From Bacteroidales bacterium (GTDB taxonomy: Bacteria > Bacteroidota > Bacteroidia > Bacteroidales > VadinHA17), in contig JARKQN010000116.1 in the NCBI GenBank assembly GCA_029974835.1, forward strand, positions 1 to 32,184: a stretch of DNA of 32,184 nucleotides, in the 5' to 3' direction. The position numbers were made by a program, and so were the translations under genes. Of the stretch, positions 1,777-28,292 are shown piece after piece; the stretch's first letter is position 1, and every line of letters begins with the position of its first letter. The notes under the pieces were generated by a model that saw only the letters and a list, made by a program, of their open reading frames with translations, was not told where the DNA came from and did no database searches.

Positions 1777-2607
1777 TCAGATAGCTATCCTGGTATCATT
1801 TAACTTTTTGATGGGGATTTGCGTTATTCTGGATTTTTTCACAGGAAGAGTGAAATAAAAACCTGTACCGGAAATTCCGTTTCTCTCGATCCACATGCGG
1901 CCGCCAAGCGTGGCGATAATCAATCTGGATACAGCCAGGTTAAGAGCGGTTGCGGTATCATTGTATTTTAAAATGGCATCGTGAAGACTCTGTTCACTCA
2001 TAAGATCTGAATTCTTTACGTATCCTGTACCCGAATCAAGTACGTAAAAAGTCACTATGCCATCCGACTGGCTGTGTCCGATTTTGATATACCCCGAACT
2101 TGTGTTGTTGACGGAATTCCTGAAAAGATTGCGTAAAACTTTGTTAACCCTTATGTTATCAATAAAAACTTCATCATTAAAAATTGCCTGATTCTCATGT
2201 ATCAGAACTATTTCGTTTTTTTCCTCCTTTTTAAGAAGAGCACCGAATTCTGTAATCAGTTCTGAAACAAGATTGTTTATGGAGCAGTTTTTCGCTTCGG
2301 AAATTACATTACCCGTATCAATGAAAACCGAATCGAAAAAATTGTCGAACATAAACATCAGTTGTTCACAGGAATCAAGTATCTGGTTTGAAAATTCCTT
2401 TCTCTCTTCATCATTGAGATTGCTGTTATTCATCAGAAAGGTGAACGCCACAATGGAATTCATATGTGTTCTCATCTCGTGCGATAAACCTGAAATAAGA
2501 GCCGGGCAATTGATCATGCTGTCAATATTCTTTTCCACCGGTGAATCTGCCTCATGCAAACCATCAAGGGTGTTTATCAGGTTTATGTTATTTACCCTCT
2601 CTGACAT
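1777..2607 (-). CDS. Soluble sensor histidine kinase without a recognisable sensor domain
   Basis: 276 residues. A HisKA-type dimerisation/phosphoacceptor motif is visible at residues ~39-50 (SGLSHEMRTHMN, candidate phospho-His H43). An HATPase_c domain follows, with a degenerate N box (LRNLFRNSVNNT), a G1 box (DSGTGY) and a G2-like GTGFYFTLP near the C-terminus. There is no membrane segment, PAS or GAF domain; only ~35 residues precede the HisKA motif. Histidine kinases autophosphorylate and pass phosphate to a response regulator, but none is encoded in this window, so the partner is elsewhere or the protein signals differently. The gene lies 51 bp downstream of the TPR anti-sigma-like gene on the same strand, so they are probably co-transcribed. 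The N box deviates from consensus, so reduced activity is possible. Confidence 0.82.
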   Translation of the reverse strand: MSERVNNINLINTLDGLHEADSPVEKNIDSMINCPALISGLSHEMRTHMNSIVAFTFLMNNSNLNDEERKEFSNQILDSCEQLMFMFDNFFDSVFIDTGNVISEAKNCSINNLVSELITEFGALLKKEEKNEIVLIHENQAIFNDEVFIDNIRVNKVLRNLFRNSVNNTSSGYIKIGHSQSDGIVTFYVLDSGTGYVKNSDLMSEQSLHDAILKYNDTATALNLAVSRLIIATLGGRMWIERNGISGTGFYFTLPVKKSRITQIPIKKLNDTRIAI

Positions 2608-2658
2608 TTCTCTGAAAATTTCTTAATAACTAAACTAATTATCTTTCAGGGCCTGGCG

Positions 2659-3408
2659 TTATTTAACTCTTTTCAGCAGTTTTGCTGCCTTTTTGCTGTA
2701 AACAGATCCTGACGATCTTACCGCATTAAGCTCATTTTTTGCAGCCTCGGTTTTACCTGTGTTGATATAACACAGAGCCAGGTACCATCTTGCATTATCA
2801 AGGAAATAGTTGTTGCCGTCGTCAAGGATTGCTGAAAATGATTTCTCAGCTTCGGGGAAATTTCTGTTTTTCATTTCGGATATACCGTAAATAAGACGGG
2901 CTTCCATGTTCCCCGGGCTGTTATATATGAACTCCTTGAAAAGCTTTGCAGCATTTTCAAAATCATTGTTATTGTAAAGGCTTAATGCTTTTGAGTAAAT
3001 GGGGTCTATACCTGAGGCATTGTTGCTTCTTGCCTGGTCTCCGGCTTCATACAGGGAAAAGTAGTGGTTAAACAGTGAAGCAGGCGATTGCATGCGGTTG
3101 ATATAGATAAACATACTTCCAACCATTACCAGGGCTGCAATAACGGCTGCGGAACGGTACGCCATTTTCCTGCGCGCCAGCTTCTGAGCCTCTTTTTTCC
3201 TGTATTCTTCTCCGATGGCAGAGAGCCTGGACCGTAACTTGATCACATCCTGTTTGCGCAGCATTTCATCGGTTTTTCTGCGCAGCATGATTTCCCTTTG
3301 CAGGTATTCGTTTCCCTCAATTTCACTGTTAAACCAGTTTCGTTCCTGCTGATCCATCTCTCCGGCAAGGTACTTTTCGATAAAATAAGAATAATCAATT
3401 GCCTTCAT
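2659..3408 (-). CDS. Membrane TPR protein with anti-sigma-like N-terminus
   Basis: 249 residues. The first ~80 are helical and strongly charged (motif YFIEKYLAGEMDQQERNWF), resembling the cytoplasmic sigma-binding region of Bacteroidota anti-sigma factors, though no zinc-binding His/Cys set is present. A single transmembrane helix spans ~83-103, preceded by Arg/Lys residues, which predicts an N-in, C-out orientation. The periplasmic part (~125-249) has TPR repeats (SLYNNNDFENAAKLF, EMKNRNFPEAEKSF, ALCYINTGKTEAAKNEL). I infer that it may hold an ECF sigma factor inactive, with the one at 7131-7697 the nearest candidate partner. This topology and the TPR periplasmic part are seen in the sequence; the anti-sigma role is inference, and a scaffold role is possible. 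It is probably the first gene of an operon with the histidine kinase. Confidence 0.7.
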   Translation of the reverse strand: MKAIDYSYFIEKYLAGEMDQQERNWFNSEIEGNEYLQREIMLRRKTDEMLRKQDVIKLRSRLSAIGEEYRKKEAQKLARRKMAYRSAAVIAALVMVGSMFIYINRMQSPASLFNHYFSLYEAGDQARSNNASGIDPIYSKALSLYNNNDFENAAKLFKEFIYNSPGNMEARLIYGISEMKNRNFPEAEKSFSAILDDGNNYFLDNARWYLALCYINTGKTEAAKNELNAVRSSGSVYSKKAAKLLKRVK

Positions 3409-3518
3409 GGTATTAATATTTTTAAAATAAACATATTCTTATCATTTAAATCCTTCAGATACAGCCTGATGTAATGATTTTATGATTGCACCAGAATCTC
3501 TGCCGGACAAAAATTATA

Positions 3519-3547
3519 TTCATACCATTGACCAGTCAATGTATGAA
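3519..3547. repeat. Imperfect inverted repeat (hairpin A of the intergenic cluster)
   Basis: TTCATACCATTGAC (3519-3532) pairs with GTCAATGTATGAA (3535-3547) with one bulged C and a 2-base loop in DNA form. It is the first of several consecutive dyads in the 324-bp gap between the TPR gene and the peptide gene. Apart from these dyads and the terminator, I see no credible gene in this gap (3409-3732). Confidence 0.6.
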
Positions 3548-3570
3548 CTGTCAGGAATTATGCTTTTCAT

Positions 3571-3604
3571 GCATAACCCGGTTATGCAGGGAAACCCCGG
3601 TTTC
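3571..3604. repeat. Two adjacent perfect inverted repeats (hairpins B and C)
   Basis: GCATAAC (3571-3577), CCG, GTTATGC (3581-3587) is a perfect 7-bp stem. Immediately after it, GAAACC (3591-3596), CC, GGTTTC (3599-3604) is a perfect 6-bp dyad, flanked by TGCAG on the left and CTGCA-like bases on the right that can extend the second stem. Neither is followed by a T run, so they are not simple terminators. Confidence 0.6.
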
Positions 3605-3639
3605 TGCACACTCCTGATGAATTGCCCTGATATAAACTC

Positions 3640-3659
3640 CCGGGTACAACTTTACCCGG
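3640..3659. repeat. Perfect inverted repeat (hairpin D)
   Basis: CCGGGTA (3640-3646) and TACCCGG (3653-3659) enclose CAACTT. The loop-side ACAACTTTACC can instead pair with GGTAAAAGTTGT (3672-3683) with one bulge, so two alternative folds are possible here. Confidence 0.55.
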
Positions 3660-3703
3660 ACCGGTCGCTACCGGTAAAAGTTGTGCGGGCAAATTATTAT
3701 TTC

Positions 3704-3729
3704 AAAAAACCTGTTCTGTTTTTCAGAAC
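3704..3729 (-). terminator. Intrinsic terminator of the leader-peptide gene
   Basis: On the minus strand, GTTCTG, a 5-base A loop and CAGAAC form a 6-bp stem (3713-3729), followed after AGG by six T residues (3704-3709). It lies three bases beyond the stop codon of the small peptide gene. This supports that gene as a real, separately terminated transcription unit. Confidence 0.75.
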
Positions 3730-3732
3730 ATA

Positions 3733-3897
3733 TTATAATTTTATTGGAGGAGTAGTTGGAGGATTAATTGGATCACCATCACCACCGCCACCGCGAACGG
3801 CTGACATTTCATCATTTGTTAAAGAAAATGCTGCCAGAAATTCCAGATCTTTTTTTACTTCCTGTGTTTTCATAATTTTTTCGTTTTTAGTTTTCAT
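3733..3897 (-). CDS. Double-glycine leader peptide precursor (GG-Bacteroidales type)
   Basis: A small peptide of 54 residues from the ATG at 3897, or 46 from the in-frame ATG at 3873. The leader holds a hydrophobic-acidic stretch (DLEFLAAFSLTNDEMSAVRGG) whose LTNDEM..V.GG end resembles double-glycine leaders of Bacteroidota natural-product precursors. The C-terminal core after the first GG is about 17 residues, GGDGDPINPPTTPPIKL: proline-rich, with no Cys or Ser. A longer in-frame start at 3948 is unlikely because the predicted promoter lies inside that stretch. A promoter and terminator bracket the gene. The C39-type exporter at 7845 would cleave after GG during export. No RiPP modification enzyme is encoded in the window, so the product may be an unmodified signal or bacteriocin-like peptide. 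Its activity is unknown. Confidence 0.78.
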   Translation of the reverse strand: MKTKNEKIMKTQEVKKDLEFLAAFSLTNDEMSAVRGGGGDGDPINPPTTPPIKL

Positions 3898-3927
3898 TGA
3901 TACTTTTTCGGGTAATTGTTTTACATA

Positions 3928-3960
3928 CATACGTACCCGGAACATCAATTTTGTGACAAA
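3928..3960 (-). promoter_or_regulatory. Predicted promoter of the leader-peptide gene
   Basis: On the minus strand, TTTG (3957-3960) is separated by 21 bp from TACGTATG (3928-3935), one mismatch from the Bacteroidota -7 box TAnnTTTG. A-tract DNA just upstream (3961-3990) could act as an UP-like element. Transcription would begin near 3923, leaving a 25-base leader to the ATG at 3897. Confidence 0.55.
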
Positions 3961-3999
3961 AAAAAATCAAAAAAATTTGAAAAAAAATGTATGTGGCTA

Positions 4000-4032
4000 T
4001 ATGTCAATCAATTAAAATTATTAATACTATTG
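4000..4032 (+). promoter_or_regulatory. Weak candidate promoter for the CHAT gene
   Basis: TATG (4000-4003), 21 bp, then TACTATTG (4025-4032) each differ by one base from the Bacteroidota consensus. This would leave a leader of ~40 bases before the GTG start. If the gene is controlled by the local ECF sigma factor, a housekeeping-like match would not be expected, so this call is tentative. Confidence 0.3.
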
Positions 4033-4077
4033 ACTGAATAGATTTATATTTATACCCTGAAAAACCTGTGTAAGGCT

Positions 4078-7000
4078 GTGTGCAGAACTGAAATTATTTT
4101 TGCATTAATTCTGTTTTTACGGATAAACAGTTACGGGATGCCGCCGTGTGAGGCCGGGGCGGAATCCGGGAGCAGTGAGACATCTGTGGTGAGAGCACTT
4201 ATTCAGGACCCGGACTCGGTTCTTGAGAGAATTATTGCCAGGATTGAAGACGCATTCAATTACAGGCAGGCCGACCGGATGGACTCCCTGTCTGACAATA
4301 TAATCAGGATACTCGGTTCCGGAGAAATATCAGAACCAGCCCTTCTCGCAAAAGGTTATTATTATGCCGGAGCTTCTCTCGCTTATACCAAAAGGGTGCA
4401 GAATTCTTTTGATTATTTCAGAAAGGCAATTGAAATTCTTAATATTTATCCCGACGACACCCTGAAAAGCCGCATAATATATTTCATGGGTTATGCTGCA
4501 AATATTGCCGGCGATCATCTTGCTTCAGACAGATACTTTGATGAAGCCCTTTCCCTGAAGAAGAAAATATACGGTGAGAATTCCGGAGAACTGTTGACAG
4601 CATACCTTTCAAGTGCCATCGCCAAAATTAATTTAAGGGACTTCGAAGGGGCAAAATCAATAATTGACGAGATTATTGACAAAACCCGGAGAAATATTAT
4701 TAAACCTGCTCCTTCCGATCTTGCATTGTTATACCAGAACAGGGGAGTCGCTCTTGCAAACCTCTCGGAGCAGAGACAGGCAATACTCAATATGCTGAAA
4801 TCGCTGGAAATTCATGAAAAATATGAATTGCCTGTCGATGATAACAGACTTAACCTTCTTAACAATATTGCCACTACTTATTATTATCTCAAGGAATATG
4901 AAAAATGCATTGAGTACTTTGAAAAAGGACTGAAATACACTGACAATATTCTATCTGTTCATTCGAGAGATCTGGCTGTTAATTACGCGCTTATTCTCGG
5001 CAGGCTGGGATATACCGAGAAGGGCCGGCGGATACTTGAAAATTTATTTAACAGGTTCAGGTTTAAGTACGGAGACGACTCCGAAGAGACGGCTGAGATA
5101 GCCCTCAATTATACCGATTACCTGAGGATTTACCGAACCGATGAGAATAAATTCCTGCTTCTTTATAAACTCTGCTACAATTTTGCGGATACTCATCCCT
5201 GGAATATAAACTTCATAACCAGGCTTTCGCTTGGATATTCCTTATATCTTATTGACCAGGGACACTACAGGGCCGCCCATGATACGATTGCTATCCTGCT
5301 TTGCCGAAATTCAGATATAAAAATACCTGATAATCTGTTTTTTAATCCTGATCCGGGTTTACTCCATAACGACAAAACCACTCTCGATATTCTGAAAGCG
5401 AAATACCTTGCACTTAAGGGGCTATATGATACCGAAAAAGATTTGAAATACCTTGAAATGGCTGTCAGAACCGTCGAAATAATGACAACGGTAATTGAAA
5501 ATATAAGGTTTCGAATGGGGGAGGAGGAGAGCCGTTTACTGCTGGGTGAAAGATTCAGGGATACTTACCTTACGGGAATTGCCGTCAACAGGAAGTTATA
5601 CGAAATAACATCCGATCCTGCATATATTGACAAGGCATTCGGATTTATGGAGAAGGGTAAGGCGGCAAGTCTGCTTACTTCGGTAAGAGAAAACCTCGGA
5701 ATTAAATATCACGTTCCCGGACAACTTGCCAGGCTCGAAAAAGAGACAAGGCTGAAGATAGGTTATTATGAATCAAGAATAAATGATATTGCCAACAGCC
5801 CAGATTCTGATACGAATACTTACAGTACTTACTCAAATCTGCTTCTGGATGAACTGACAAGGATGGATTCAATAATGGCAGCTATCGAGAAAGGCTACCC
5901 GGGATATTACGGCTACAGGTATAATAACCGGGTACTGAACACTGAAGAGGTGCTGAGGGAAACAGGCCGAAGGTCCGATTTTATCAGTTATGTGGCAGGA
6001 GATACAATCCTTTATATTGTCTTATTGAATCATAACGCAAAAGTGGTCAAAGCCGTTAATATAGATACGGGTTTTTACAATAAGGTAAGGGATTTCCGCC
6101 AGATGCTGGCTGAACCCCTGATGGAAGGAAATATTAAATCCTCATTTATCAGAATGCAGGAAACAGGTCATTATTTGTATAAATATCTTATTGAACCTGT
6201 AAAAGAGTTCTTCGTTTCGGACAGGCTGATTATTTCACCCGACAGGGAGCTGGTGCTTTTCCCGTTTGAAGCCCTTCTCTCATCATTCAATTCCGATACA
6301 TCACTATATTACGGCAGGCTTCCTTTCCTCTTCAGGGAATTTAATATCTCATATGCGTACACCGCAACCCTTCTGGCGGAAACAGGAAGGTCGGGAAAAT
6401 CTCTTTTCAACAGAACGATTGTCTTTGCACCTGAATACAGGAATACCATAAACAGCGACTCTCTTGAAATTACAAGGGATCCTTCAGGGATAATGCTTAT
6501 GCCGCTCCGGCATGCCATGCAGGAAGCTGTTTTTGTAAAAAAAATCACCAATGCAGAACTTTTCACCGGTTCATCTGCTACTGTCGAAAATTTCAGAAGA
6601 GAAGTTCAGAGGCATAATATTATTCATCTTGCCCTTCACACAGTGATAGATGAAAGATCATCCGCGAATTCCGGATTATACTTTTCGGAACCAGTCAGTG
6701 GCACAGGACAGGCTGTCTTAAATCTGTATGAGATACCTGAATTATCTCTCGATGCGAGGATGGTGGTTCTCAGCTCCTGCCATACCGGATCGGGCAGGCT
6801 GCTATCGGGAGAAGGGGTTTTGAGCGTGGCCAGGGAATTCATAAAAGCCGGAAGCAGTTCAGTGGTTATGTCGCTCTGGGAGGTCGATGACAGGTCAGGA
6901 GCTGAACTAATGAAGCTTTTTTACAGGAATATCAGATCAGGGATGTTTAAAAGCAAAGCGCTTCGCAAGGCCCGTGAAAAATATCTTGAGACGGCCGACA

Positions 7001-7149
7001 TGAAACATTCAATACCTTACTTCTGGCTTAATATTGTAGTTTACGGAGACGACAGGCCGGTTAGCTGGCCATGGTACCTGAAAATTGGAATACTTGTAAT
7101 TCTGGTGTCGGTAATGGCTATTGTTCGCCTCTACTTCAGGAAGCGCTGA
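4078..7149 (+). CDS. Exported, membrane-anchored TPR-CHAT caspase-like protease
   Basis: 1023 residues from a GTG start; no ATG lies upstream in frame before a stop. An N-terminal hydrophobic segment (IIFALILFLRINSYG) looks like a signal peptide. Residues ~50-450 are TPR repeats. The C-terminal ~300 residues are a CHAT domain with the usual ending motifs (VLSSCHTG, LSGEGVLS, SSVVMSLWEVDD). The predicted dyad is intact: H854 in IHLALH and C901 in SSCHTG. A final transmembrane helix (~1000-1018) is followed by RLYFRKR, predicting a periplasmic protease domain anchored in the inner membrane. CHAT proteins are cysteine proteases of the caspase clan, often with TPR domains. Between a leader-peptide gene and its exporter, it might process that system or the periplasmic TPR regulator; both are inference. 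Its 3' end overlaps the convergent sigma gene by 19 bp. Confidence 0.9.
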   Translation: MCRTEIIFALILFLRINSYGMPPCEAGAESGSSETSVVRALIQDPDSVLERIIARIEDAFNYRQADRMDSLSDNIIRILGSGEISEPALLAKGYYYAGASLAYTKRVQNSFDYFRKAIEILNIYPDDTLKSRIIYFMGYAANIAGDHLASDRYFDEALSLKKKIYGENSGELLTAYLSSAIAKINLRDFEGAKSIIDEIIDKTRRNIIKPAPSDLALLYQNRGVALANLSEQRQAILNMLKSLEIHEKYELPVDDNRLNLLNNIATTYYYLKEYEKCIEYFEKGLKYTDNILSVHSRDLAVNYALILGRLGYTEKGRRILENLFNRFRFKYGDDSEETAEIALNYTDYLRIYRTDENKFLLLYKLCYNFADTHPWNINFITRLSLGYSLYLIDQGHYRAAHDTIAILLCRNSDIKIPDNLFFNPDPGLLHNDKTTLDILKAKYLALKGLYDTEKDLKYLEMAVRTVEIMTTVIENIRFRMGEEESRLLLGERFRDTYLTGIAVNRKLYEITSDPAYIDKAFGFMEKGKAASLLTSVRENLGIKYHVPGQLARLEKETRLKIGYYESRINDIANSPDSDTNTYSTYSNLLLDELTRMDSIMAAIEKGYPGYYGYRYNNRVLNTEEVLRETGRRSDFISYVAGDTILYIVLLNHNAKVVKAVNIDTGFYNKVRDFRQMLAEPLMEGNIKSSFIRMQETGHYLYKYLIEPVKEFFVSDRLIISPDRELVLFPFEALLSSFNSDTSLYYGRLPFLFREFNISYAYTATLLAETGRSGKSLFNRTIVFAPEYRNTINSDSLEITRDPSGIMLMPLRHAMQEAVFVKKITNAELFTGSSATVENFRREVQRHNIIHLALHTVIDERSSANSGLYFSEPVSGTGQAVLNLYEIPELSLDARMVVLSSCHTGSGRLLSGEGVLSVAREFIKAGSSSVVMSLWEVDDRSGAELMKLFYRNIRSGMFKSKALRKAREKYLETADMKHSIPYFWLNIVVYGDDRPVSWPWYLKIGILVILVSVMAIVRLYFRKR

Positions 7150-7697
7150 TACTCTATGTATTCGGGATCAGCCTTTATTATCTCCATAAGCGCTTCCTTG
7201 CACAGGTATTTTTTCCGCCGGGCATATACTTCATTCTTAAGCTGTAATTTCTCTGCAATCTCCTCGTATGATTTACCCTCATAATACATCTCCAGTACAG
7301 ACCGGCAATCGGGCTTAAGCTTATTCAGCGATCTTGTAAGAATCTTCATGAAAAGCGGATCGGATAAACCCTCATCTTCATCCTCTCCGGCGATATCGAA
7401 ATCGAGTTCGTCCGTTTTTGATTTTTCCCTCAGGTGTTTAAGCCAGATATTGCGGGAAATTCCGAAGAAATATCCTTTAAGATCTGAATGTATGTTAAAT
7501 CCGTTGGAGCAGATCTGCTCATAAAGAGCAATAATTGAATCCTGGAACACGTCGTACGAATCTTCTTCCGAACCACCCGTTTTCAGAACATGGCTGTTCA
7601 CCATCTTAAACCAGGCCCGGTACAGGTAATTGAGTACCTTTTCGTCCTGCAGGCGAATTCCTTCAATAATATCCCTATCTTGCAGATTCCCCAACAA
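7131..7697 (-). CDS. ECF-type RNA polymerase sigma-70 factor
   Basis: 188 residues from a TTG start; no in-frame ATG lies between the -7 box and the start. Region 2 spans ~25-90 (SYDVFQDSIIALYEQI, then LKGYFFGISRNIWLKHLRE) and region 4 ~125-175 (KLKPDCRSVLEMYYEGKSYEEIAEKL). Length and layout are normal for an extracytoplasmic-function sigma factor, which directs RNA polymerase to a small regulon in response to envelope signals. It lies between the CHAT gene and the peptide exporter, on the opposite strand. No anti-sigma gene is adjacent, but the membrane TPR protein at 2659-3408 is a candidate. The 3' ends of this gene and the CHAT gene overlap convergently, so mutual antisense effects are possible. 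Confidence 0.9.
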   Translation of the reverse strand: MLGNLQDRDIIEGIRLQDEKVLNYLYRAWFKMVNSHVLKTGGSEEDSYDVFQDSIIALYEQICSNGFNIHSDLKGYFFGISRNIWLKHLREKSKTDELDFDIAGEDEDEGLSDPLFMKILTRSLNKLKPDCRSVLEMYYEGKSYEEIAEKLQLKNEVYARRKKYLCKEALMEIIKADPEYIEYQRFLK

Positions 7698-7725
7698 TCC
7701 CTGTCAGATTGCCTTAATAAACTGA

Positions 7726-7733
7726 CAAATATA
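7726..7733 (-). promoter_or_regulatory. -7 box of the sigma-factor gene promoter
   Basis: TATATTTG on the minus strand matches TAnnTTTG exactly, about 30 bases upstream of the TTG start. No good TTTG lies at the expected -33 spacing, so this is a partial match. Confidence 0.45.
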
Positions 7734-7844
7734 CTATTTCCCTTTTTCATTCCTCATAAATATGGGCAGACAACCTTTTTAATCCGGCCCCGTAACCTGA
7801 AATATTTAAAATAAATATCTTTACCATTATAACGACAGAGAAAA

Positions 7845-10031
7845 ATGTCCTTCCCTTTTTTCAGGCAGCCTGATAATATGGATTGCGGCCCAGCATGCCT
7901 CAAAATGGTTACTGCATATTACGGGAAGAATTTTTCCATTGAAAACCTCCGGAAGAGATGCTATATTACAAGGGAAGGTGTTTCTTTCCTTGGGCTATCA
8001 GAAGCAGCAGATTCACTTGGTTTCAGGACAATAGGAGTGAAGGTTCCTTTTAATACATTTTTGTCGGATGTGCCTTTGCCTGCAATTGTTCACTGGAAAC
8101 AGAAGCATTTTGTCGTTGTCTATAAGACTTCTGACAAGTACGTCTGGGTATCGGATCCCGCCGCCGGGCAAATAAAGTACTCTCACGCCGATTTCATAAA
8201 ACACTGGTCAGGTACCGTTATCAGCGGTGAACCTGTCGGGCTTGCCCTGATAATGGAACCTCAGCCGGAACTTTACAAGGTAAGCGATGATGAGAAAACT
8301 GGCACCGGTTTTAAATTTCTTTGGAAATATTTCCATCTGTACCGGAAATATATTTACCAGCTTCTGCTCGGCCTTTTCCTGGGAAGTATTATCCAACTGA
8401 TCATTCCGTTTATTACCCAGTCGGTAATTGACATAGGTATAAACAACAACGATATCGGCTTCATTTACCTTATTCTCTTTGCCCAACTGGCACTTGTGGC
8501 AGGTCGTTTTTCGGTGGAATTCATTAGAAGCTGGCTTTTGCTGCACATCGGAACCAGGGTTAACGTGGCTATCGTGTCCGGGTTCCTTCAGAAACTTATG
8601 TCTCTGCCGGTTTCATATTTCGATACGAAACTCACCGGGGATATTTTCCAGAGAATAGATGATAATAACCGCATCGAGGAATTTCTTACATCAACATCCT
8701 TAAACATAATCTTTTCCTTCTTCAATATACTGGTATTCGGAATAGTCCTGGCCATATTCAGCCTGAAAATCCTTGCCCTGTTTATGGCAGGCACACTTTT
8801 ATATATCGCATGGGTATTGCTTTTTATGAAACCACGGGCATTGCTCGATAACCAGAGGTTCAGACAAATGTCTGCAACAAACAGCAAGCTCATCCAGATT
8901 GTCAACGGCATGCAGGAAATCAAGCTGACGCAGAGTGAACTTGCAAGGCGATGGGAGTGGGAAAACCTGCAGGCTTCACTTTTCAGGCTCAGGGTGAAAG
9001 GACTTTCGCTTCTTCAGTACCAGAGCGCAGGAGCCACATTAATCAACGAAATCACCAATATCCTCATAACTCTTCTGGCTGCCACATCGGTAATAAAAGG
9101 TGAGCTTACGCTAGGTATGATGCTTGCCATACAGTTTATTATCGGCCAGATGAACGTACCTGTCAGCCAGGTTCTTTATTTTTTCAGAACATCACAGGAC
9201 GCAAGGCTGAGTCTTGACCGGCTGTCTGAGATACACTCCATGGACGATGAGGAAACTTCGCCCGAGATTAAGGTTAATAAACTGCCGGATAAGAAAGATA
9301 TCTATATCAATAACCTGTCGTTTCAGTATGAAGGTCCAAGGTCACCTTATGCTCTCAGAAATATTGATCTTGTTATCCGTGAAAATAACGTTACGGCGAT
9401 TGTCGGCACAAGCGGAAGCGGCAAAACGACTCTCCTTAAGATGATACTTGGTTTCTACAGGCCTGTCACGGGCGAAATAATCATAGGCGATACACGTCTC
9501 GAAAACATTAGTATACGCACTCTCAGAAAAAAAGTGGGGGCTGTAATGCAGGACGGCTATATCTTTGCCGATACTATTGCTGCAAATATAGCCCCGGGCG
9601 TGGAAACAATCGACGAGGAAAGAATGATACGTGCCGCCGAAATGGCTAACATAAGAGGATTTATTGAATCCCTGCCGTTAAGATACAACACTAAAGTGGG
9701 GATAAATGGTCACGGCCTGAGTGAAGGACAAAAGCAGAGACTGCTGATTGCAAGAGTCATTTATAAAAACCCTGAAATAATAATATTTGACGAGGCAACC
9801 AATTCGCTTGATGCAGGCAATGAAAAGGCCATTGTCGAAAACCTAAGGGAATTCTACAGGGGGAAAACAGTCATCATTGTTGCTCACAGGCTGAGCACGG
9901 TTAAGGACGCCGATAAAATCGTAGTACTCGACAACGGACATCTTGTTGAATCAGGTACACACCAGGAACTTACTGAAAAAAAGGGAATATATTACAAACT
10001 GGTAAGAAACCAGCTGGAACTGGGAAACTGA
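7845..10031 (+). CDS. Peptidase C39-containing ABC exporter (PCAT, leader-cleaving)
   Basis: 728 residues. An N-terminal C39 peptidase domain has the DCGPACL motif: Q8, C14, H88 and D104 form the expected oxyanion/catalytic set. Six predicted membrane helices lie between ~160 and ~450. The C-terminal ATPase has Walker A GTSGSGKTT (~520), signature LSEGQ (~624), Walker B IIIFDEA (~645) and the switch His in AHRLS (~679). PCATs in the inner membrane cut the leader after a GG pair and export the core. All catalytic residues look intact. The HlyD-type partner starts 18 bp downstream, so the two form an operon. The 46-54-residue GG-leader peptide at 3733-3897 is the obvious candidate substrate. 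Further substrates may exist elsewhere in the genome. Confidence 0.95.
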   Translation: MSFPFFRQPDNMDCGPACLKMVTAYYGKNFSIENLRKRCYITREGVSFLGLSEAADSLGFRTIGVKVPFNTFLSDVPLPAIVHWKQKHFVVVYKTSDKYVWVSDPAAGQIKYSHADFIKHWSGTVISGEPVGLALIMEPQPELYKVSDDEKTGTGFKFLWKYFHLYRKYIYQLLLGLFLGSIIQLIIPFITQSVIDIGINNNDIGFIYLILFAQLALVAGRFSVEFIRSWLLLHIGTRVNVAIVSGFLQKLMSLPVSYFDTKLTGDIFQRIDDNNRIEEFLTSTSLNIIFSFFNILVFGIVLAIFSLKILALFMAGTLLYIAWVLLFMKPRALLDNQRFRQMSATNSKLIQIVNGMQEIKLTQSELARRWEWENLQASLFRLRVKGLSLLQYQSAGATLINEITNILITLLAATSVIKGELTLGMMLAIQFIIGQMNVPVSQVLYFFRTSQDARLSLDRLSEIHSMDDEETSPEIKVNKLPDKKDIYINNLSFQYEGPRSPYALRNIDLVIRENNVTAIVGTSGSGKTTLLKMILGFYRPVTGEIIIGDTRLENISIRTLRKKVGAVMQDGYIFADTIAANIAPGVETIDEERMIRAAEMANIRGFIESLPLRYNTKVGINGHGLSEGQKQRLLIARVIYKNPEIIIFDEATNSLDAGNEKAIVENLREFYRGKTVIIVAHRLSTVKDADKIVVLDNGHLVESGTHQELTEKKGIYYKLVRNQLELGN

Positions 10032-10049
10032 AAGCTAATTTTATTTAAG

Positions 10050-11342
10050 GTGGTGAAAACAGAAGTCCAATATTCAGAACCTGTAACCGAGATAATGGGA
10101 AGACCTCCGGGCCTTATCACCAGGGTCGGAACGGTGGTTATATTTTCTGTTTTTGTCCTATTCATCCTGTTTTCCTGGCTGATCAGATACCCCGATATTG
10201 TTCCAGCCCAGGTGGAAATCACCACAGAGAATCCTCCTGTTACGGTAATGTCGAGAATCTCGGGAAGGATCATGCATCTGTTGGCAGGAGACAGGGAAAA
10301 GGTTAATGCCGGTCAGGTACTTGCAGTAATGGAAAACCCTGCTGTATATGAGGATATATCCAGGCTGAGGGCATTTACAGACACCTTTAACGTTGATCCG
10401 GAAAATTTTGCCGGTCTGCCAGATCTGTCAGGGCTGGGTGAGTTGCAGAGCAGTTATGAGACTTTCGGAAGAAGCATGGCCGACCTGGTAAACTTTATCG
10501 GAAATGACCTGTACGGGGCAAGGATAAATGCCCTAATGAATGAAATCAGTGAAATAGAAATGTATATAGCAAGGCTTAAGGAAAGCGAGCGCCTTTTCCG
10601 CGATAACTATAACCTTGAATTAAACAGATTCAGGCGTGATTCGTTGCTGAATGCAGGCCGGACAATACCTGATGCTGCTTATGAACAGTCAAGACAGGCC
10701 CTGATAAGGCAGCAGATCGAACTCCAGAAGGTGAGGCTCGATATTTCAGCAAGGAATATAGAACTGACTAACAAAAGACAATTAATTGTGGAGTATAATC
10801 TCCAGAAAAAGGAGGAAAATGACAAACTGTTAAACGCAGCAAGGGAATCATTTAAAAACCTCAGAGCCGACCTGAGCATATGGGAAAACAATTACCTGCT
10901 GGTTTCACCTGTCAACGGCGTTGTTACATACTCAAAATACTGGTCCGAAAACCAGGTTGTTAAGAAGGATGAAGCAGTTCTGTCGGTAGTGCCGGAAGAT
11001 CCCGGAAAACACATCGGTAAAATCAACCTCAGGATGCAGAAATCGGGAAAGGTAAGAGAGGGCCAGACTGTTATGATAAAGCTTTCAGGTTATCCTTATA
11101 TGGAATACGGCATGCTTAGAGGAGTAATCAGATCCAAATCGCTTGTTCCGTCGGGCGACTCATACCTTATTGAGATTTTACTCGAAAATGATCTTACCAC
11201 TCTTTACGGGAAGAAACTCGAATTCTCCCAGAATATGACAGGAACCGGTGAAATAATCACGGATGATATGAGCCTTCTCGAGAAAATGATCTACCCCTTC
11301 AGATATCTTGCCTCGAGGAATAAAAGATATTCAGGAGGTTAA
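10050..11342 (+). CDS. HlyD-family periplasmic adaptor (membrane fusion protein)
   Basis: 430 residues from a GTG start (a second GTG follows at once). One transmembrane helix at ~26-45 is followed by a biotinyl-lipoyl-like segment (SRISGRIMHLLAGDREKVNAG), a long coiled-coil hairpin (~165-285), the returning lipoyl half (VSPVNGVVTYSKYW) and a beta-barrel region. This is the standard adaptor that bridges a peptide exporter in the inner membrane to an outer-membrane channel. It forms an operon with the PCAT exporter. No TolC-like gene is present in the window, so the outer-membrane exit must be encoded elsewhere. The 3' end overlaps the convergent small membrane-protein gene by 4 bp. Confidence 0.93.
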   Translation: MVKTEVQYSEPVTEIMGRPPGLITRVGTVVIFSVFVLFILFSWLIRYPDIVPAQVEITTENPPVTVMSRISGRIMHLLAGDREKVNAGQVLAVMENPAVYEDISRLRAFTDTFNVDPENFAGLPDLSGLGELQSSYETFGRSMADLVNFIGNDLYGARINALMNEISEIEMYIARLKESERLFRDNYNLELNRFRRDSLLNAGRTIPDAAYEQSRQALIRQQIELQKVRLDISARNIELTNKRQLIVEYNLQKKEENDKLLNAARESFKNLRADLSIWENNYLLVSPVNGVVTYSKYWSENQVVKKDEAVLSVVPEDPGKHIGKINLRMQKSGKVREGQTVMIKLSGYPYMEYGMLRGVIRSKSLVPSGDSYLIEILLENDLTTLYGKKLEFSQNMTGTGEIITDDMSLLEKMIYPFRYLASRNKRYSGG

Positions 11343-23097: not shown

Positions 23098-25014
23098 GTG
23101 AAGAAGATATTTAAAATATCTGTTTTAATACAATTCATATCCGGGTTATTATGTGCCCAGGATTTAACTTCATCCGATACAATAAAAATCAGGGAGGTTA
23201 TTATTTCTGCTGTCAGAAGTATTTCTTTCACCTCTCCATTCAGCCGTTATGAAACCGACAGCACTCTTATTGCAGAGAAAAGATTCTCGAGAGTGACAGA
23301 TCTTCTTGCTGAGGCTGTTCCCGTCTATACTAAGAAATACGGACCCGGAGGACTTTCGACCGTATCATTAAGGGGGACGGCGGCCGTTCATACAACAATT
23401 ACATGGAACGGTCTTTCACTTTCATCACCCATGGCCGGGCAGTCGGATTTATCGCTTATTCCGTCGCTGTTCGCCGATCACCTGACTGTGGAATACGGAG
23501 GGGCTTCCATGTTTTCAGGGGGGGGAAGCTTCGGAGGCAACCTCAACCTGACAACAGAGCCACGCTGGAATACCCCGCTGGAAATTTCCGTGTCGGGTCT
23601 TGCGGGGAGATACGGACTGCTTTCCGGCAATACCATGGTTTCTTCGGGAGGGAAGAATTTCAGTTATTCTGCCAGAATATTCTCGGAAAAAGCTGATAAC
23701 AATTACCGTTATCTTAATTACGCATTATACCCCGACCCGGTACGTGAACGTCGCAGCAACGCCGAAACCGTGATGAATTCCGTAATGCAGGAAGCTTCCT
23801 GGAGAAGCGGGAAATCGGTAACCTGTGCAGCTTTATGGCTCCAGGCATCAGACCGTAACCTGCCGTCAAGCATCCTGGTTTCAGGAACAGGATTCCCGGA
23901 AAATCAGAAGGATGAATCTGTAAGGGCCGTTATTAATCATAAGATAACTTCCGGAGAAAAATCTTACAGCTTTACGGCAGGAGTCACAGGTGACAGACTT
24001 AAATATGTCAACACCCTTTCGTCTGTAATTTCGGATAACAAATCAGCAACTTATACCTTTAAAGGTACAAATGACCTTAAAGCCGGCGGCAATCTGGGAA
24101 TAAGGATCTTTGTTTCGGAAGAATACAGCGTTGTAAGGTCGGTGAACTATGATGGCGGGCAGAAAAACAAAAATGTCTTTTCATTCGGTTCCGCCCTTAC
24201 CAGCAATCAGGGTAAAAGGTCATCTGTTACCCTGCTGGTGCGCGAAACCGCCTTCGATAATAAGTTACAGTTACCTGATTTTTCGGCCGGCTGGAATTAC
24301 TTTCTGTCGGGCAGAAAAGATTCCTGGATTAAGACGAACTTTTCAAGGAACTCCAGAACTCCTGCCCTTAACGATTTGTACTGGGTTCCCGGGGGCAATC
24401 CGGAAATAAGGAATGAGTACTCTCATTCGGGAGAAGTGAATACAGGTTTCAGGCACATTACTGGCAATGGTTTGAATATGAGCAGCGAACTTACCATATA
24501 TTCATCGGTCATAAGGGATATGATACAATGGCTGCCGGGGGAAAACGGTTACTGGAGTCCTTCCAATATCAGAGATGTAAATATCTTGGGTACTGAAATA
24601 AACTGGGGCTTATCGGGTTCTGCCGGACCGGCTTCATGGAGTTTTAAGGGATTTATGTCTTATACAAAATCGGTCTATATGTCGGGGGGACCAGATATGA
24701 AAGGCAACCAGGTAATATATGTGCCTGAAATCGAATGCAGCGGGAAAGCCGGAGTAAAATATAAATCATTCTTCGGAGCGTTTGATGCGGGCTATACCGG
24801 AAAAAGATTTATCACAACCGACAATGCACAACATCTGAAACCATTCGCACTTTTAAACCTTGAAACCGGCTTAGACCTGAAAAAGGGTAAACAGGGTTAT
24901 GTTATCAGACTGAGAATGGAAAACCTTCTGGATGTCAATTATGAACTGGTAAGTTATTATCCGATGCAGGGCTTTGCCTGGCATCTCAGTTTTGAATACA
25001 GGTTCAGAAAATGA
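23098..25014 (+). CDS. btuB: TonB-dependent cobalamin receptor, BtuB-like
   Basis: 638 residues from a GTG start. After a signal peptide (VLIQFISGLLCAQ) come a putative TonB-box region and a plug domain (RFSRVTDLLAEAVPVYTKKY, VSLRGTAAVHTTITWNGL, VEYGGASMFSGGGSFGGNL). The rest is an outer-membrane beta-barrel ending in an aromatic residue pattern (WHLSFEYRFRK). Its length resembles E. coli BtuB (about 600). It should move cobalamin across the outer membrane using TonB energy; the riboswitch and co-located ABC importer assign the substrate. It shares an ATGA-type overlap with the BtuG-like gene. No N-terminal carboxypeptidase-like extension, as in SusC, is present. Confidence 0.9.
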   Translation: MKKIFKISVLIQFISGLLCAQDLTSSDTIKIREVIISAVRSISFTSPFSRYETDSTLIAEKRFSRVTDLLAEAVPVYTKKYGPGGLSTVSLRGTAAVHTTITWNGLSLSSPMAGQSDLSLIPSLFADHLTVEYGGASMFSGGGSFGGNLNLTTEPRWNTPLEISVSGLAGRYGLLSGNTMVSSGGKNFSYSARIFSEKADNNYRYLNYALYPDPVRERRSNAETVMNSVMQEASWRSGKSVTCAALWLQASDRNLPSSILVSGTGFPENQKDESVRAVINHKITSGEKSYSFTAGVTGDRLKYVNTLSSVISDNKSATYTFKGTNDLKAGGNLGIRIFVSEEYSVVRSVNYDGGQKNKNVFSFGSALTSNQGKRSSVTLLVRETAFDNKLQLPDFSAGWNYFLSGRKDSWIKTNFSRNSRTPALNDLYWVPGGNPEIRNEYSHSGEVNTGFRHITGNGLNMSSELTIYSSVIRDMIQWLPGENGYWSPSNIRDVNILGTEINWGLSGSAGPASWSFKGFMSYTKSVYMSGGPDMKGNQVIYVPEIECSGKAGVKYKSFFGAFDAGYTGKRFITTDNAQHLKPFALLNLETGLDLKKGKQGYVIRLRMENLLDVNYELVSYYPMQGFAWHLSFEYRFRK

Positions 25015-26060
25015 AGAAAGAGATATTTGCGGGCTTGTCAGCTCTGGCTCTGATTCTCTCCGGCTGTAAACCCGGAATGGATGATCCGTCAGACTTCTGT
25101 CTGTTGCCGCAGGGGGATGGTATATTTATTGCAAACGAAGGAAACTTCATGTGGGGCAACGGGTCAGTCTCATTTTATTCATTTGATTCTCTGAAAATCT
25201 ATAACGAAATCTTTTCCCGGACAAATGGCCGGCCTGCAGGTGATGTCCCTAATTTCATAGCAATTCATGACGACAGGGCTTTTATTGTAGTAAACAATTC
25301 CAATAAGATCGAGGTTGTCGATTGCAGAACATTTAAAACAGCAGGTGTAATAACCGGACTGGTATCACCGCGTCAGATATGCTTCATAAATGATTCCGAA
25401 GCTTATGTGTCAAGTCTTTACAGTACAAAGATCAGTGTGGTCGATATTACAGGTTATAAAATAACCCGGCATATTGAAACCGGAAGGACTACGGAAGCTA
25501 TTGTGATGAAAGGCGGTATGGCTTATGTCTCCTGCTGGGTCGGAGGTAATGAGGTGATCGTAATTAATACATATACCCATGAAGTTACAGGCAGCGTGGA
25601 GGTGGGCATGGAACCTGAGAGCATGGCTTTTGACAAGTCGGGTATGCTCTGGGTTCTTTGCACCGGCGGATACAGCGGCGGGTTTCTCCCGGAGATAAAT
25701 GTTATTGATCCTGATTTGCTGACTGTAAGCAAAACATTCACCTTTGATTCAGGTAATTCGTATCCTTCATCGCTGGTTATTAACAGGAGCGGCGATACAC
25801 TCTATTATATCGACCGGTCAGTCTGGAGGTTGCCCGTTAATTCTTCCGGATTACCCAGCGAACCTTTTATCCGGGCCTCGGGAAGAACCTTCTACAGAAT
25901 AGCAAAAGATCCGGCAGGTGGCCGGTTGTTTGTCACTAACGCGCTTGATTATCAGCAAAAGGGATACCTGCTTGTTGCCGACAGCAGGGGTGATATCATT
26001 GACTCGGCGAGAGCGGGTATAATCCCGGGAAATATGTGTTTCAGATACAAAAAGAAATGA
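25011..26060 (+). CDS. btuG: Beta-propeller surface lipoprotein, BtuG-like
   Basis: 349 residues. Lipobox LSGC gives lipidated C19, followed by KPGMDDPSD, an acidic stretch like lipoprotein surface-export signals in Bacteroidota. The rest is a YncE/DUF5074-like propeller with repeated blades (VVNNSNKIEVVDCRTFKTAG, YVSSLYSTKISVVDI, NEVIVINTYTHEVTGSVEVG). BtuG of Bacteroides is a seven-bladed propeller that binds cobalamin on the surface and caps BtuB. Placement directly after the receptor, with overlapping start and stop, fits that partnership. The symbol rests on fold and context; I did not identify ligand residues. Confidence 0.8.
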   Translation: MKKEIFAGLSALALILSGCKPGMDDPSDFCLLPQGDGIFIANEGNFMWGNGSVSFYSFDSLKIYNEIFSRTNGRPAGDVPNFIAIHDDRAFIVVNNSNKIEVVDCRTFKTAGVITGLVSPRQICFINDSEAYVSSLYSTKISVVDITGYKITRHIETGRTTEAIVMKGGMAYVSCWVGGNEVIVINTYTHEVTGSVEVGMEPESMAFDKSGMLWVLCTGGYSGGFLPEINVIDPDLLTVSKTFTFDSGNSYPSSLVINRSGDTLYYIDRSVWRLPVNSSGLPSEPFIRASGRTFYRIAKDPAGGRLFVTNALDYQQKGYLLVADSRGDIIDSARAGIIPGNMCFRYKKK

Positions 26061-26072
26061 GCCTCACTGCCA

Positions 26073-27230
26073 ATGAGAATTTTCAATGAAATATCTGTGT
26101 TTCTGTGCCTGATGCTGATGATCTGTTCAGGCTGCCACTCAGGACCGCCTGCGGATAACCATGATGAAAAGGAGAGAGGTGACATTATAAAATATGCAGA
26201 ACACCTGAATATTACCGTGCATGAAGGCTTTACAAAAATTGAGATAATAAATCCGTGGCAGAGGGCATCAGATCTGAAGTTTGAGTATTTCCTGGTTAAA
26301 AAAGGAGAATCTGTACCGGCAGGTAAGGATGATTCAGAAATAATTTTTACACCGGTTGACCGGATTGTATTAATGTCAACCACCTATATTGAAATGATGA
26401 CCGCTCTTGGTAAGCAGGACGCCATTAAAGGTATCTCCGGGACCGGTTATGTTTATAATGAAGATATCCGGAGAAGGATAAAGGATGGCCTGATTTTGGA
26501 AACAGGGTACGAAGAAAATCTTAACCGGGAGTTACTTTTAAAAATAAAACCAGACCTTATTATTGCCTACGGAATCGGCAGCGAGTCGGCGGGTTACCTG
26601 AAGATGCCGGAAGAGGCCGGCATTAAAGTTATCTATAATGCCGATTATCTCGAGGAACATCCGCTTTCCAAAGCAGAATGGATAAAATTATTCGGAGCTC
26701 TTTTCTGCCTGGAGGGGAAGGCTGATTCACTGTTCAGGAAGATAGAATCAGATTACAGTAATATACGCGATTCGGTGAAAAAATACATTCAGGATGCTCC
26801 GAAAGTGCTGCTGGGGCTACCATGGCAGAATGCCTGGTATATTTCCCCCGGGAATTCATATATCAGCAATCTTATTAAAGATGCAGGAGGTCGCTACATC
26901 TGGGAAGATCTTAAATCAGACTACGCAGTTCCGATGAGCCTTGAGAATGTATTCGTAAAAGCTTCCGAAGCCGGGTTCTGGTTAAATGCAGGAAATGCAA
27001 CTGATATCAGTGAAATTATTTCCCTCGATGAGAGGCTGGCCGGATTAAGGCCGGTCAGAGAGGGAAAGGTTTATAATAACAACAGGAGATCTCTGCCGGG
27101 TGGAGGAAATGACTACTGGGAGAGCGGAGCAATCTCTCCCCATATAATACTCAGGGATGTTGCATCTATTCTCCACCCCGGAATATTCAAAGGGTATGAA
27201 CCGGTTTATTACCGTAAGCTTAAAGATTAA
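26073..27230 (+). CDS. btuF: Cobalamin ABC transporter substrate-binding lipoprotein, BtuF-like
   Basis: 385 residues. The lipobox ICSGC gives lipidated C21. The body has class III periplasmic-binding-protein features: VDRIVLMSTTYIEMM, LLLKIKPDLIIAYG, and PLSKAEWIKLFGALF before a long connecting helix, then VLLGLPWQNAWYISPGN. It binds corrinoid in the periplasm and delivers it to the permease. It lies one base before the permease TTG, or 9 bp before the alternative ATG. Iron-siderophore binding proteins share the fold, but the riboswitch supports cobalamin. Confidence 0.88.
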   Translation: MRIFNEISVFLCLMLMICSGCHSGPPADNHDEKERGDIIKYAEHLNITVHEGFTKIEIINPWQRASDLKFEYFLVKKGESVPAGKDDSEIIFTPVDRIVLMSTTYIEMMTALGKQDAIKGISGTGYVYNEDIRRRIKDGLILETGYEENLNRELLLKIKPDLIIAYGIGSESAGYLKMPEEAGIKVIYNADYLEEHPLSKAEWIKLFGALFCLEGKADSLFRKIESDYSNIRDSVKKYIQDAPKVLLGLPWQNAWYISPGNSYISNLIKDAGGRYIWEDLKSDYAVPMSLENVFVKASEAGFWLNAGNATDISEIISLDERLAGLRPVREGKVYNNNRRSLPGGGNDYWESGAISPHIILRDVASILHPGIFKGYEPVYYRKLKD

Positions 27231-27239
27231 TTGACACCA

Positions 27240-28292
27240 ATGGGAAAAGAACTTTCAGATGTAAATGTAAACGGTACCAAATATGCAAGGGTATTCGTAT
27301 ATCTTACGCTGACACTCCTGTTGCTTTTTCTCCTCGATATTATTCTCGGCTCGGTAAGCCTTTCCTTACGCGAAATAGCGGGAGCTTTAAAAGACAGGGA
27401 TGACCTCGCCGGTTTAATTATCTTCAGTTTCAGGCTGCCCAAGGCTTTTACGGCTATTCTTGCCGGTGCAGCCCTTTCGGTAAGCGGCCTCCTGATGCAG
27501 ACAATATTCCGCAATCCGCTGGCCGGTCCGTACGTTCTTGGCATCAGTTCCGGTGCAAGCCTGGGAGTTGCGGTTGTACTGCTGGGCTTTTCATCATTTA
27601 TCCCCGTCTCCGCTGTAAAGGCCTCAGGGGCGTGGCTTATCGCTGCAGCATCATGGATCGGGGCAGGAGCAATTATGATGCTGATCATGTTTATTTCAAT
27701 GAGGATAAAAGATATTCTGACTGTTCTGATCATAGGTATTATGCTCTCTTCCGGTATTTCGGCAGTGGTGAGTATCATGCAGTATTTCAGTTCCGAAACC
27801 ATGCTGAAATCTTATGTTATATGGACCATGGGCAGCCTCGGGAATGTTGATTCCGGGCAGCTTCGTGTAATGGCCCTGTGCGTGCTTGCAGGCCTTGCTC
27901 TGGCACTGGTATCCTCGAAAATGCTTAACGCACTTCTTCTGGGGGAGGCTTATGCCTCAACCCTCGGAACAAATCTCACAACGGCCAGGGTTCTGATCTT
28001 TTCTTCCACAAGCCTCCTCGCCGGCACTGTAACAGCCTTCTGCGGACCAATAGGGTTTATAGGTATCGCAGTGCCTCATATTGTGAAATTTTTCCTTAGA
28101 ACATCAGAACACCGAATCCTGCTTCCGGCTTCAATTCTTGCCGGAAGCTCGATACTTCTTCTCAGCGACATAATCTCGCAGATGCCGGGCTCTGACAAAA
28201 TTCTGCCGGTAAATGCCATCACCTCTCTTACCGGAATACCTGTTATTATATGGGTAATTCTGAAGAACAGGGAATACAGGTTCAGCGTATGA
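27240..28292 (+). CDS. btuC: Cobalamin ABC transporter permease, FecCD/BtuC family
   Basis: 350 residues from the ATG at 27240; an in-frame TTG at 27231 adds three residues, and I prefer the ATG. About nine to ten membrane helices. Family motifs include RLPKAFTAILAGAALSVSG, FRNPLAGPYVLGISSGASLG and FCGPIGFIGIAVPHIVKFF. It dimerises in the inner membrane and carries corrinoid with BtuF and BtuD. The stop overlaps the start of the ATPase (GTATGAATG), implying coupling. Confidence 0.92.
   Translation: MGKELSDVNVNGTKYARVFVYLTLTLLLLFLLDIILGSVSLSLREIAGALKDRDDLAGLIIFSFRLPKAFTAILAGAALSVSGLLMQTIFRNPLAGPYVLGISSGASLGVAVVLLGFSSFIPVSAVKASGAWLIAAASWIGAGAIMMLIMFISMRIKDILTVLIIGIMLSSGISAVVSIMQYFSSETMLKSYVIWTMGSLGNVDSGQLRVMALCVLAGLALALVSSKMLNALLLGEAYASTLGTNLTTARVLIFSSTSLLAGTVTAFCGPIGFIGIAVPHIVKFFLRTSEHRILLPASILAGSSILLLSDIISQMPGSDKILPVNAITSLTGIPVIIWVILKNREYRFSV

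Follow-up and report, generated by a model that had tools for sequence, protein, structure and literature searches.

Seven adjacent genes at positions 1777–11342 of a contig from a Bacteroidales bacterium (JARKQN010000116.1, assembly GCA_029974835.1) raise the question of whether a peptide exporter, a CHAT protease and a sigma factor belong to one system, and what such a system would do. The contig of 32,184 nucleotides (32 kb), which is called the window below, is one of 127 in a genome of 2.9 Mb. The calling of open reading frames (ORFs) and searches against Pfam and NCBIfam confirmed that all seven genes of the cassette are present with the domains proposed in an initial annotation: a histidine kinase (HK), a membrane protein with tetratricopeptide repeats (TPRs), a peptide with a double-glycine (GG) leader, a TPR-CHAT protease, a sigma factor of the extracytoplasmic function (ECF) type, the C39 peptidase-ABC exporter PCAT, and an HlyD-type adaptor. 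We give an even chance to the proposal that this cassette is a self-contained secreted-peptide signalling circuit. The simplest reading would be a protease-controlled release of the ECF sigma factor, with the gene of the exported peptide as its main target. The sequence evidence consists of the parts themselves, their linkage, their gain or loss as a block, a conserved peptide core, a His/Cys pair in the protease, topology predictions, and an ECF-type promoter.

The peptide, the protease and the sigma module

The features of the cassette are as follows.

1777–2607, minus strand: histidine kinase; HisKA and HATPase_c and nothing else in Pfam; accessory
2659–3408, minus strand: membrane TPR protein, presumed anti-sigma factor; predicted helical cytosolic part, one transmembrane (TM) helix (83–101) and periplasmic TPR domain
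Start at 3897 or 3873, stop at 3733, minus strand: gene of the GG-leader peptide; position and leader kept in relatives
3733–3786 including the stop, minus strand: predicted peptide core GGDGDPINPPTTPPIKL, following the GG
3930–3958, minus strand: putative ECF-type promoter of the peptide gene, TGTCACAAA-N13-GTACGTA, from motif comparison
4078–7149, plus strand: TPR-CHAT protease with TPRs, a CHAT domain with H854 and C901, and a C-terminal TM helix (about 1000–1018)
7131–7697, minus strand: ECF sigma factor, from Pfam and NCBIfam profiles
7726–7733, minus strand: housekeeping-type -7 box TATATTTG preceding the ECF gene, from motif counts
7816–7823, plus strand: variant -7 box TATCTTTA preceding the PCAT gene, from motif counts
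7845–10031, plus strand: PCAT, a C39 peptidase-ABC exporter for GG-leader peptides, from Pfam, NCBIfam and alignment with structural relatives
10050–11342, plus strand: HlyD-type periplasmic adaptor, from Pfam and NCBIfam

The peptide ORF has two possible starts, of which 3873 is favoured by the homologues. It has no match in Pfam and no useful one in NCBIfam (best E 0.054). Among the fetched relatives, 38 have a contig that covers this position, and 37 of them encode a peptide with the same leader there; the ORF is therefore not a chance ORF but a real GG-leader peptide gene, as had been annotated. The 37 relatives and the window gave a set of 38 peptides with the common leader L[ST]..EM..[VI][RK]GG, from which single deviations occur. 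GG leaders carry GG at positions -2/-1 and conserved hydrophobic residues at -4, -7 and -12; in this set, all 38 peptides have G at both of the former positions, and V/I, M and L/M are each present in 38/38. Cleavage after the GG is predicted. The R/K at -3 is not claimed as a CHAT cleavage site; another GG leader (L178) has it too. The cores comprise 14–22 residues (14–18 in 34/38; 17 in the window) and have the consensus end PP[IV]KI, with Ile/Leu at the C-terminus and Pro at the fifth position from the end in 37/38 each. They are free of Cys in 37/38, including that of the window, and not net positive in 34/38.

The initial annotation had suggested either a secreted signal or a bacteriocin-like function. 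The conserved, Cys-free core favours a signal and made a bacteriocin no first choice; a toxin is retained within a rival explanation that we consider possible but rather unlikely. According to it, the CHAT protease would sense an envelope or phage-type insult and free the ECF sigma factor, and the peptide would be a secreted antimicrobial or effector output instead of a signal. The conservation of the core over many species, its charge and its lack of Cys argue against such a stress-triggered effector. So does the fact that no immunity gene was seen in the cassette, which, as annotated, also holds no response regulator. Bacteroidetocins, as described in the available text of PMC6671954, are likewise Bacteroidota peptides with a GG leader and a C39 ABC exporter; they have a mature length of 42 residues, members of the family contain at least two Cys, and they are accompanied by a TM protein and, in most cases, a thiol oxidoreductase. 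The absence of Cys from the 17-residue core of the window excludes its peptide from this family.

The protein encoded at 4078–7149 contains a CHAT domain (E 1.6e-50) and TPRs according to Pfam. With His and Cys in its CHAT domain it classifies as a CHAT protease: H854 and C901 are conserved in 41/41 CHAT sequences and invariant in a separate set of 43. A C-terminal hydrophobic helix was predicted in at most 42/43 CHAT sequences and an N-terminal one in 30/43; because of these predictions, a periplasmic location of the protease appears probable. The N-terminus of the window protein lies under the helix-prediction threshold, yet it is modelled as a helix and looks signal-like by eye. Sequence relatives of the CHAT domain were not found in the PDB up to E 10 (single sequence) or E 1 (profile). 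In a Foldseek search with the CHAT model, the highest ranks were taken by the anti-sigma factor DdvA (best; 8rw5, 8rot), separases and Csx29.

In the TPR protein, a single central TM helix (predicted in 47/48 members) separates a helical N-terminal part from the TPR domain; the protein is presumed to be the membrane anti-sigma factor of the ECF protein. It matches the anti-sigma profile NF052375 weakly (E 0.056), and zf-HC2 is weakly recognized in the loci L288 (E 0.0022) and L248 (E 0.12) and not in the window. By eye, the N-terminal part of the L288 protein reads as three repeats. The sigma factor exceeds the cut-offs of the sigma70-ECF profile (61.1 vs 42.9 bits) and of r4_2 (35 vs 25.7 bits), and r2 alone is slightly under its cut-off (22.1 vs 24); it has sigma2 and sigma4 only, as is characteristic of ECF factors. 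PCAT combines Peptidase_C39, ABC membrane and ABC ATPase domains in one chain (E 3.9e-39, 3.6e-29 and 2.4e-29) and aligns over nearly its full length with its solved relatives PCAT1 and ComA; its score for the NCBIfam bacteriocin_ABC profile is under the cut-off (407.8 vs 523.85 bits). PADLOC 2.0.0, applied to six of the seven proteins (the peptide was left out), matched only PCAT by four models, which we read as hits to the ATPase domain; for a known anti-phage defence it gave nothing specific.

Linkage and distribution of the cassette

Homologues were searched in 98 relatives, and a close CHAT homologue was defined by an E-value of 1.6e-98 or better. It is present in 49 of the 57 other genomes of the genus. 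Forty of these 49 loci, mostly the better-scoring ones, were fetched. All 40 have the same order OmpA, HK, TPR protein, peptide, CHAT, ECF, PCAT, HlyD, DUF349 where their contigs reach; in L048, HlyD and DUF349 are about 3 kb apart. Six loci lack the kinase although their contigs extend over its position (L042, L057, L059, L063, L067, L069), and it is thus dispensable and accessory. Across the 58 genomes of the genus including that of the window, CHAT and PCAT are both present in 49, CHAT only in one, whose contig ends in PCAT, PCAT only in two and neither in six (Fisher p 5e-6, uncorrected for kinship or incomplete genomes). The TPR protein was found in none of the eight CHAT-less genomes and in 5/5 control genomes. 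The PCAT subfamily is absent from six of the eight; G007 and G036 keep a more distant member, which is 53–54% identical.

DUF349 was located in five of the CHAT-less genomes, and four regions were fetched. In two of them (L313 from G007 and L315 from G040) OmpA lies directly beside DUF349 with no cassette; L314 ends just past DUF349, and L316 has other genes there. At least in the genomes of L313 and L315, the cassette has therefore been gained or lost as a whole. Since exactly the block 1777–11342 is missing there, the annotated boundaries are supported, and OmpA and DUF349, which both remain where the cassette is absent, were ruled out as parts of it.

Synteny extends over the whole region, OmpA and mostly also DUF349-PyrG included, and PCAT often lies elsewhere. 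This would also fit a CHAT-ECF-TPR regulator and an exporter of GG peptides that are unrelated neighbours on the same core-genome island. We consider this explanation very improbable: two genomes lack the cassette as a block, the peptide carries an ECF-type promoter, ECF-TPR-PCAT operons occur in L166 and L171, and in other families and in duplicated loci the peptide follows CHAT and not PCAT. The three duplicated loci in the genus of the window (L085–L087) contain peptide, CHAT, TPR protein, ECF and HK as a set and have no PCAT. CHAT also has the peptide next to it in L073, L077, L079, L080 and L081, which come from other families of the order. PCAT and HlyD adjoin the set in L080, L271 and L282.

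A scan of contigs for CHAT homologues yielded 79 loci, many of them from genomes already sampled. The relevant side of CHAT is covered in 66 of them, and 60 of these have a GG peptide at most 460 nt from CHAT, as judged by a profile that was partly trained on these loci; at the same threshold, none was found elsewhere in the 79. The six loci without a CHAT-adjacent peptide are L233, L273, L275, L279, L280 and L281. The layout is the same, as far as contigs extend, in 17 loci whose CHATs are more distant (L248–L251, L253–L264, L270); their cores end differently, for example in RPPVIIEI or PPVTEPEI. In L284–L289, which include Draconibacterium and Mariniphaga, presumably Prolixibacteraceae (L286 is unplaced), the peptide is divergent beside CHAT, and TPR protein and ECF lie beyond. 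Draconibacterium aestuarii (L285) has three tandem GG peptides with near-identical cores beside CHAT. The PCAT subfamily is present in 10/10 genomes tested, six of them those of L284–L289. In L074 and L078 the CHAT-ECF-TPR triad is present and no peptide was detected; the PCAT subfamily is missing from the corresponding genomes (G062, G077).

The GC content of the cassette is 0.419 compared to 0.443 in the rest. Plasmid homologues of window positions 3000–8000 were not found. A search for mobile-element boundaries, in which repeats were sought within each end and not between the ends, yielded only one weak pair of direct repeats and, after OmpA, a short inverted repeat. Elsewhere in the window (23098–29350), a TonB-receptor-like gene and genes for a binding protein, a permease and an ATPase resemble, from a reading of the ORFs, a cobalamin or siderophore uptake locus.

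Promoters of the cassette genes

The motif TGTCACAAA is located upstream of 38/38 peptides and is followed by GACATG or a variant at a spacing of 12 (35 peptides) or 13 bases (3 peptides). It also precedes 15/15 peptides found in the loci with more distant CHATs. The pattern TGTCACAAA-N10-14-ACATG has 32 sites in 25 of 31 genomes (one in 18, two in 7), compared to two sites for the reversed control, and 25 of the 32 are the peptide promoter. The six genomes that have no site comprise two CHAT-less ones (G009, G040) and four with a variant -10 box. A second pattern with the variant -10 box gave one site each in the genome of the window and in two near relatives, always at the peptide; its control gave one hit in one of four genomes searched. 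Positions 3930–3958 are the only site for this second pattern in the genome of the window. In L284–L289, the peptide is preceded by another ECF-like motif, GGTTACCTTTT..GAATAT-like, in 6/6 cases; the pattern occurs in 5/6 of these genomes at eight sites, five of them at the peptide and three elsewhere (control 0). By reading, a second copy lies just past argS with no GG peptide behind it (G490:C53:49814, about L288:13384; G492:C98:26771, L305).

The peptide is the only recurrent target that was recognized for the TGTCACAAA promoter pattern, and separate response genes were accordingly not found. This argues against the stress-triggered effector introduced above. In one genome (G011:C1:29382, L184) the pattern was read directly upstream of a second, unrelated HlyD-like/PCAT-like pair.

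The remaining genes are preceded by other boxes. The housekeeping consensus TAnnTTTG (available text of PMC9723704) was found before the ECF gene in 39/41 loci, compared to 5.5 expected by shuffling, and before the CHAT gene in 23/36 (4.9 expected). For the PCAT gene, TATCTTTA was found in 35/41 loci (0.7 expected) and the strict TAnnTTTG in 3/41. TGTCACAAA occurs neither in the ECF/PCAT interval (0/41) nor on the CHAT strand in the 150 bases before CHAT (0/36). The peptide gene thus appears to be under an ECF-type promoter, and ECF, PCAT and often CHAT under housekeeping-type boxes, a distribution that is compatible with a peptide inducing its own production.

A candidate signalling circuit

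We infer that the ECF factor uses the peptide promoter, that the TPR protein is its anti-sigma factor, that CHAT cleaves the TPR protein, and that the peptide is the trigger. Exporter, protease and sigma factor would be made from housekeeping-type promoters, and the cytosolic N-terminal part of the TPR protein would tether the sigma factor to the membrane. PCAT and HlyD would cleave and export the GG peptide as a linear, Pro-rich peptide of mostly 14–18 residues. Once in the periplasm, it might be recognized by TPR domains, either those of the anti-sigma factor, those of the membrane-anchored CHAT protease, or both; alternatively, the input to CHAT might be an envelope signal. Activated CHAT would cleave the TPR protein and free the ECF factor, which would transcribe the peptide gene and perhaps also the anti-sigma gene that follows on the same strand. 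The outcome would be a positive loop with a built-in brake, which fits the conserved C-terminus of the peptide, the TPRs as putative receptors and the dedicated exporter. More specifically, and only tentatively, we propose that a peptide pheromone of the cell's own making has as its receptor a periplasmic, caspase/separase-like CHAT protease, which signals by cleavage of an anti-sigma factor.

Parts of this design resemble known systems. The transmembrane anti-sigma factor DdvA is the best structural match of the CHAT model, at TM-scores of 0.21–0.24. DdvA is reportedly a single chain with anti-sigma, TPR and CHAT-like parts, whereas the cassette has two proteins, plus peptide and exporter. 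In Myxococcus xanthus, DdvS is needed at its own promoter and active once DdvA has been inactivated, by a signal described as unknown in the available text of PMC4374960. In the type III-E CRISPR system Craspase, as far as the available text of PMC10028731 covers it, the TPR-CHAT protease Csx29 is triggered by target RNA via Cas7-11, and cleavage of the inhibitor Csx30 relieves CASP-sigma. The last step would be the same, with a TPR-CHAT protease, a sigma inhibitor and an ECF factor, and Csx29 chains are among the fold matches; in contrast, the CHAT protein of the cassette is predicted to be periplasmic and membrane-anchored and comes with a GG peptide and exporter. A type III-E Craspase was rejected for the window: Cas7-11 and Csx30/CASP-sigma were not recognized among the ORFs by reading, and CAS_III-E_sigma scored 20.5 bits (cut-off 100). 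The RNA trigger of Csx29 and the signal acting on DdvA are points in favour of the stress-triggered effector.

As in ComC/ComAB and PCAT1, a GG leader would be cut and the peptide exported by a C39 ABC exporter. The partner pair of ComC/ComAB is ComD/ComE; the cassette has the ECF/TPR/CHAT set instead, and its kinase consists of HisKA and HATPase_c only. Among the many TPR proteins that match the TPR domain of CHAT are the peptide receptors RapJ, NprR and Rap3T. RRNPP receptors (Rap, NprR) are cytosolic and read imported peptides, in contrast to the predicted periplasmic protease. The words CHAT and sigma do not occur in the available text of a survey of ribosomally synthesized and post-translationally modified peptides of Bacteroidales (PMC10352776). 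This gene set was not described among the matches listed in a literature search of titles and abstract starts, from which subscription papers were mostly excluded; given this partial coverage, its absence in print is unproven.

Several observations weigh against the proposed circuit. The linkage within the genus is largely inherited synteny, and only three of the eight CHAT-less genomes (G007, G009, G040) are at least 90% complete; one of the other five, G035, has CHAT fragments. The promoter pattern also occurs away from the peptide, at seven of its 32 sites; five of the seven were read, and no GG peptide follows any of them. HlyD was matched in only 4/15 cassettes with distant CHATs that hold PCAT, and 18/20 PCAT-subfamily loci outside the cassette, some on short contigs, have no adjacent ECF/TPR pair. 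The top matches of the CHAT TPRs are engineered TPRs and kinesin light chain, the TM-scores to DdvA are low, and the presumed anti-sigma role is based on position, topology and weak profile matches. At L063 (7690–7900), the peptide gene has been lost from its usual place, so that its promoter now directly precedes the TPR gene; promoter, CHAT, ECF and TPR protein are retained.

The loss in L063 bears as well on an improbable alternative, in which the ECF-made peptide would inhibit the CHAT protease or the TPR protein, like securin for separase, and shut the response down. Such negative feedback would suit a peptide gene that lies beside CHAT in most loci under an ECF-type promoter, and a separase-like CHAT fold. 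It is at odds with the retention of the other genes in L063 and with a peptide that is predicted to be linear and exported; the sequence gives no sign of inhibition.

The distribution across the phylum also tells against a strict dependence on the peptide. This kind of CHAT occurs in 147/392 genomes at E 1e-40, and 60 loci were sampled mostly from the upper part of the list of 147. With neighbours defined as matches over 20 bits within 6 kb, some of them weak, ECF and TPR were both found in 21, one of them in 7 and neither in 32, as raw counts uncorrected for the background at random loci. None of the 60 has a GG peptide, and by eye no conserved small gene stood out beside the 21 peptide-less triads. 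Of 19 further CHAT loci, which come from other families of the order or are paralogues within the genus, nine have ECF and TPR and eight the peptide, which is thus absent from 11. CHAT can therefore work without the peptide, and the trigger need not be a peptide, as the stress-triggered effector would have it. Outside the order, L100, L102 and L117 contain two tandem CHAT genes, with weak ECF/TPR matches about 3–4 kb past the second.

The claim of the initial annotation that the seven genes form one system, which separate occurrence of CHAT and sigma genes from GG-peptide/PCAT genes would weaken, consequently stands in part. It holds within the lineage, given the constant order, the co-loss, the empty site, the other arrangements and the ECF-type promoter; it does not extend to the dispensable kinase, and outside the genus PCAT is often unlinked. 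The CHAT-sigma-TPR triad is the wider unit, to which peptide and exporter are tied in part of Bacteroidales only. If the signalling circuit is real, a major bacterial group would communicate by a peptide circuit whose design has not been described. With CHAT as the pheromone receptor, it would represent a quorum-sensing architecture of Bacteroidota in which a peptide acts on a CHAT-sigma switch, one that is also found peptide-less across the phylum.

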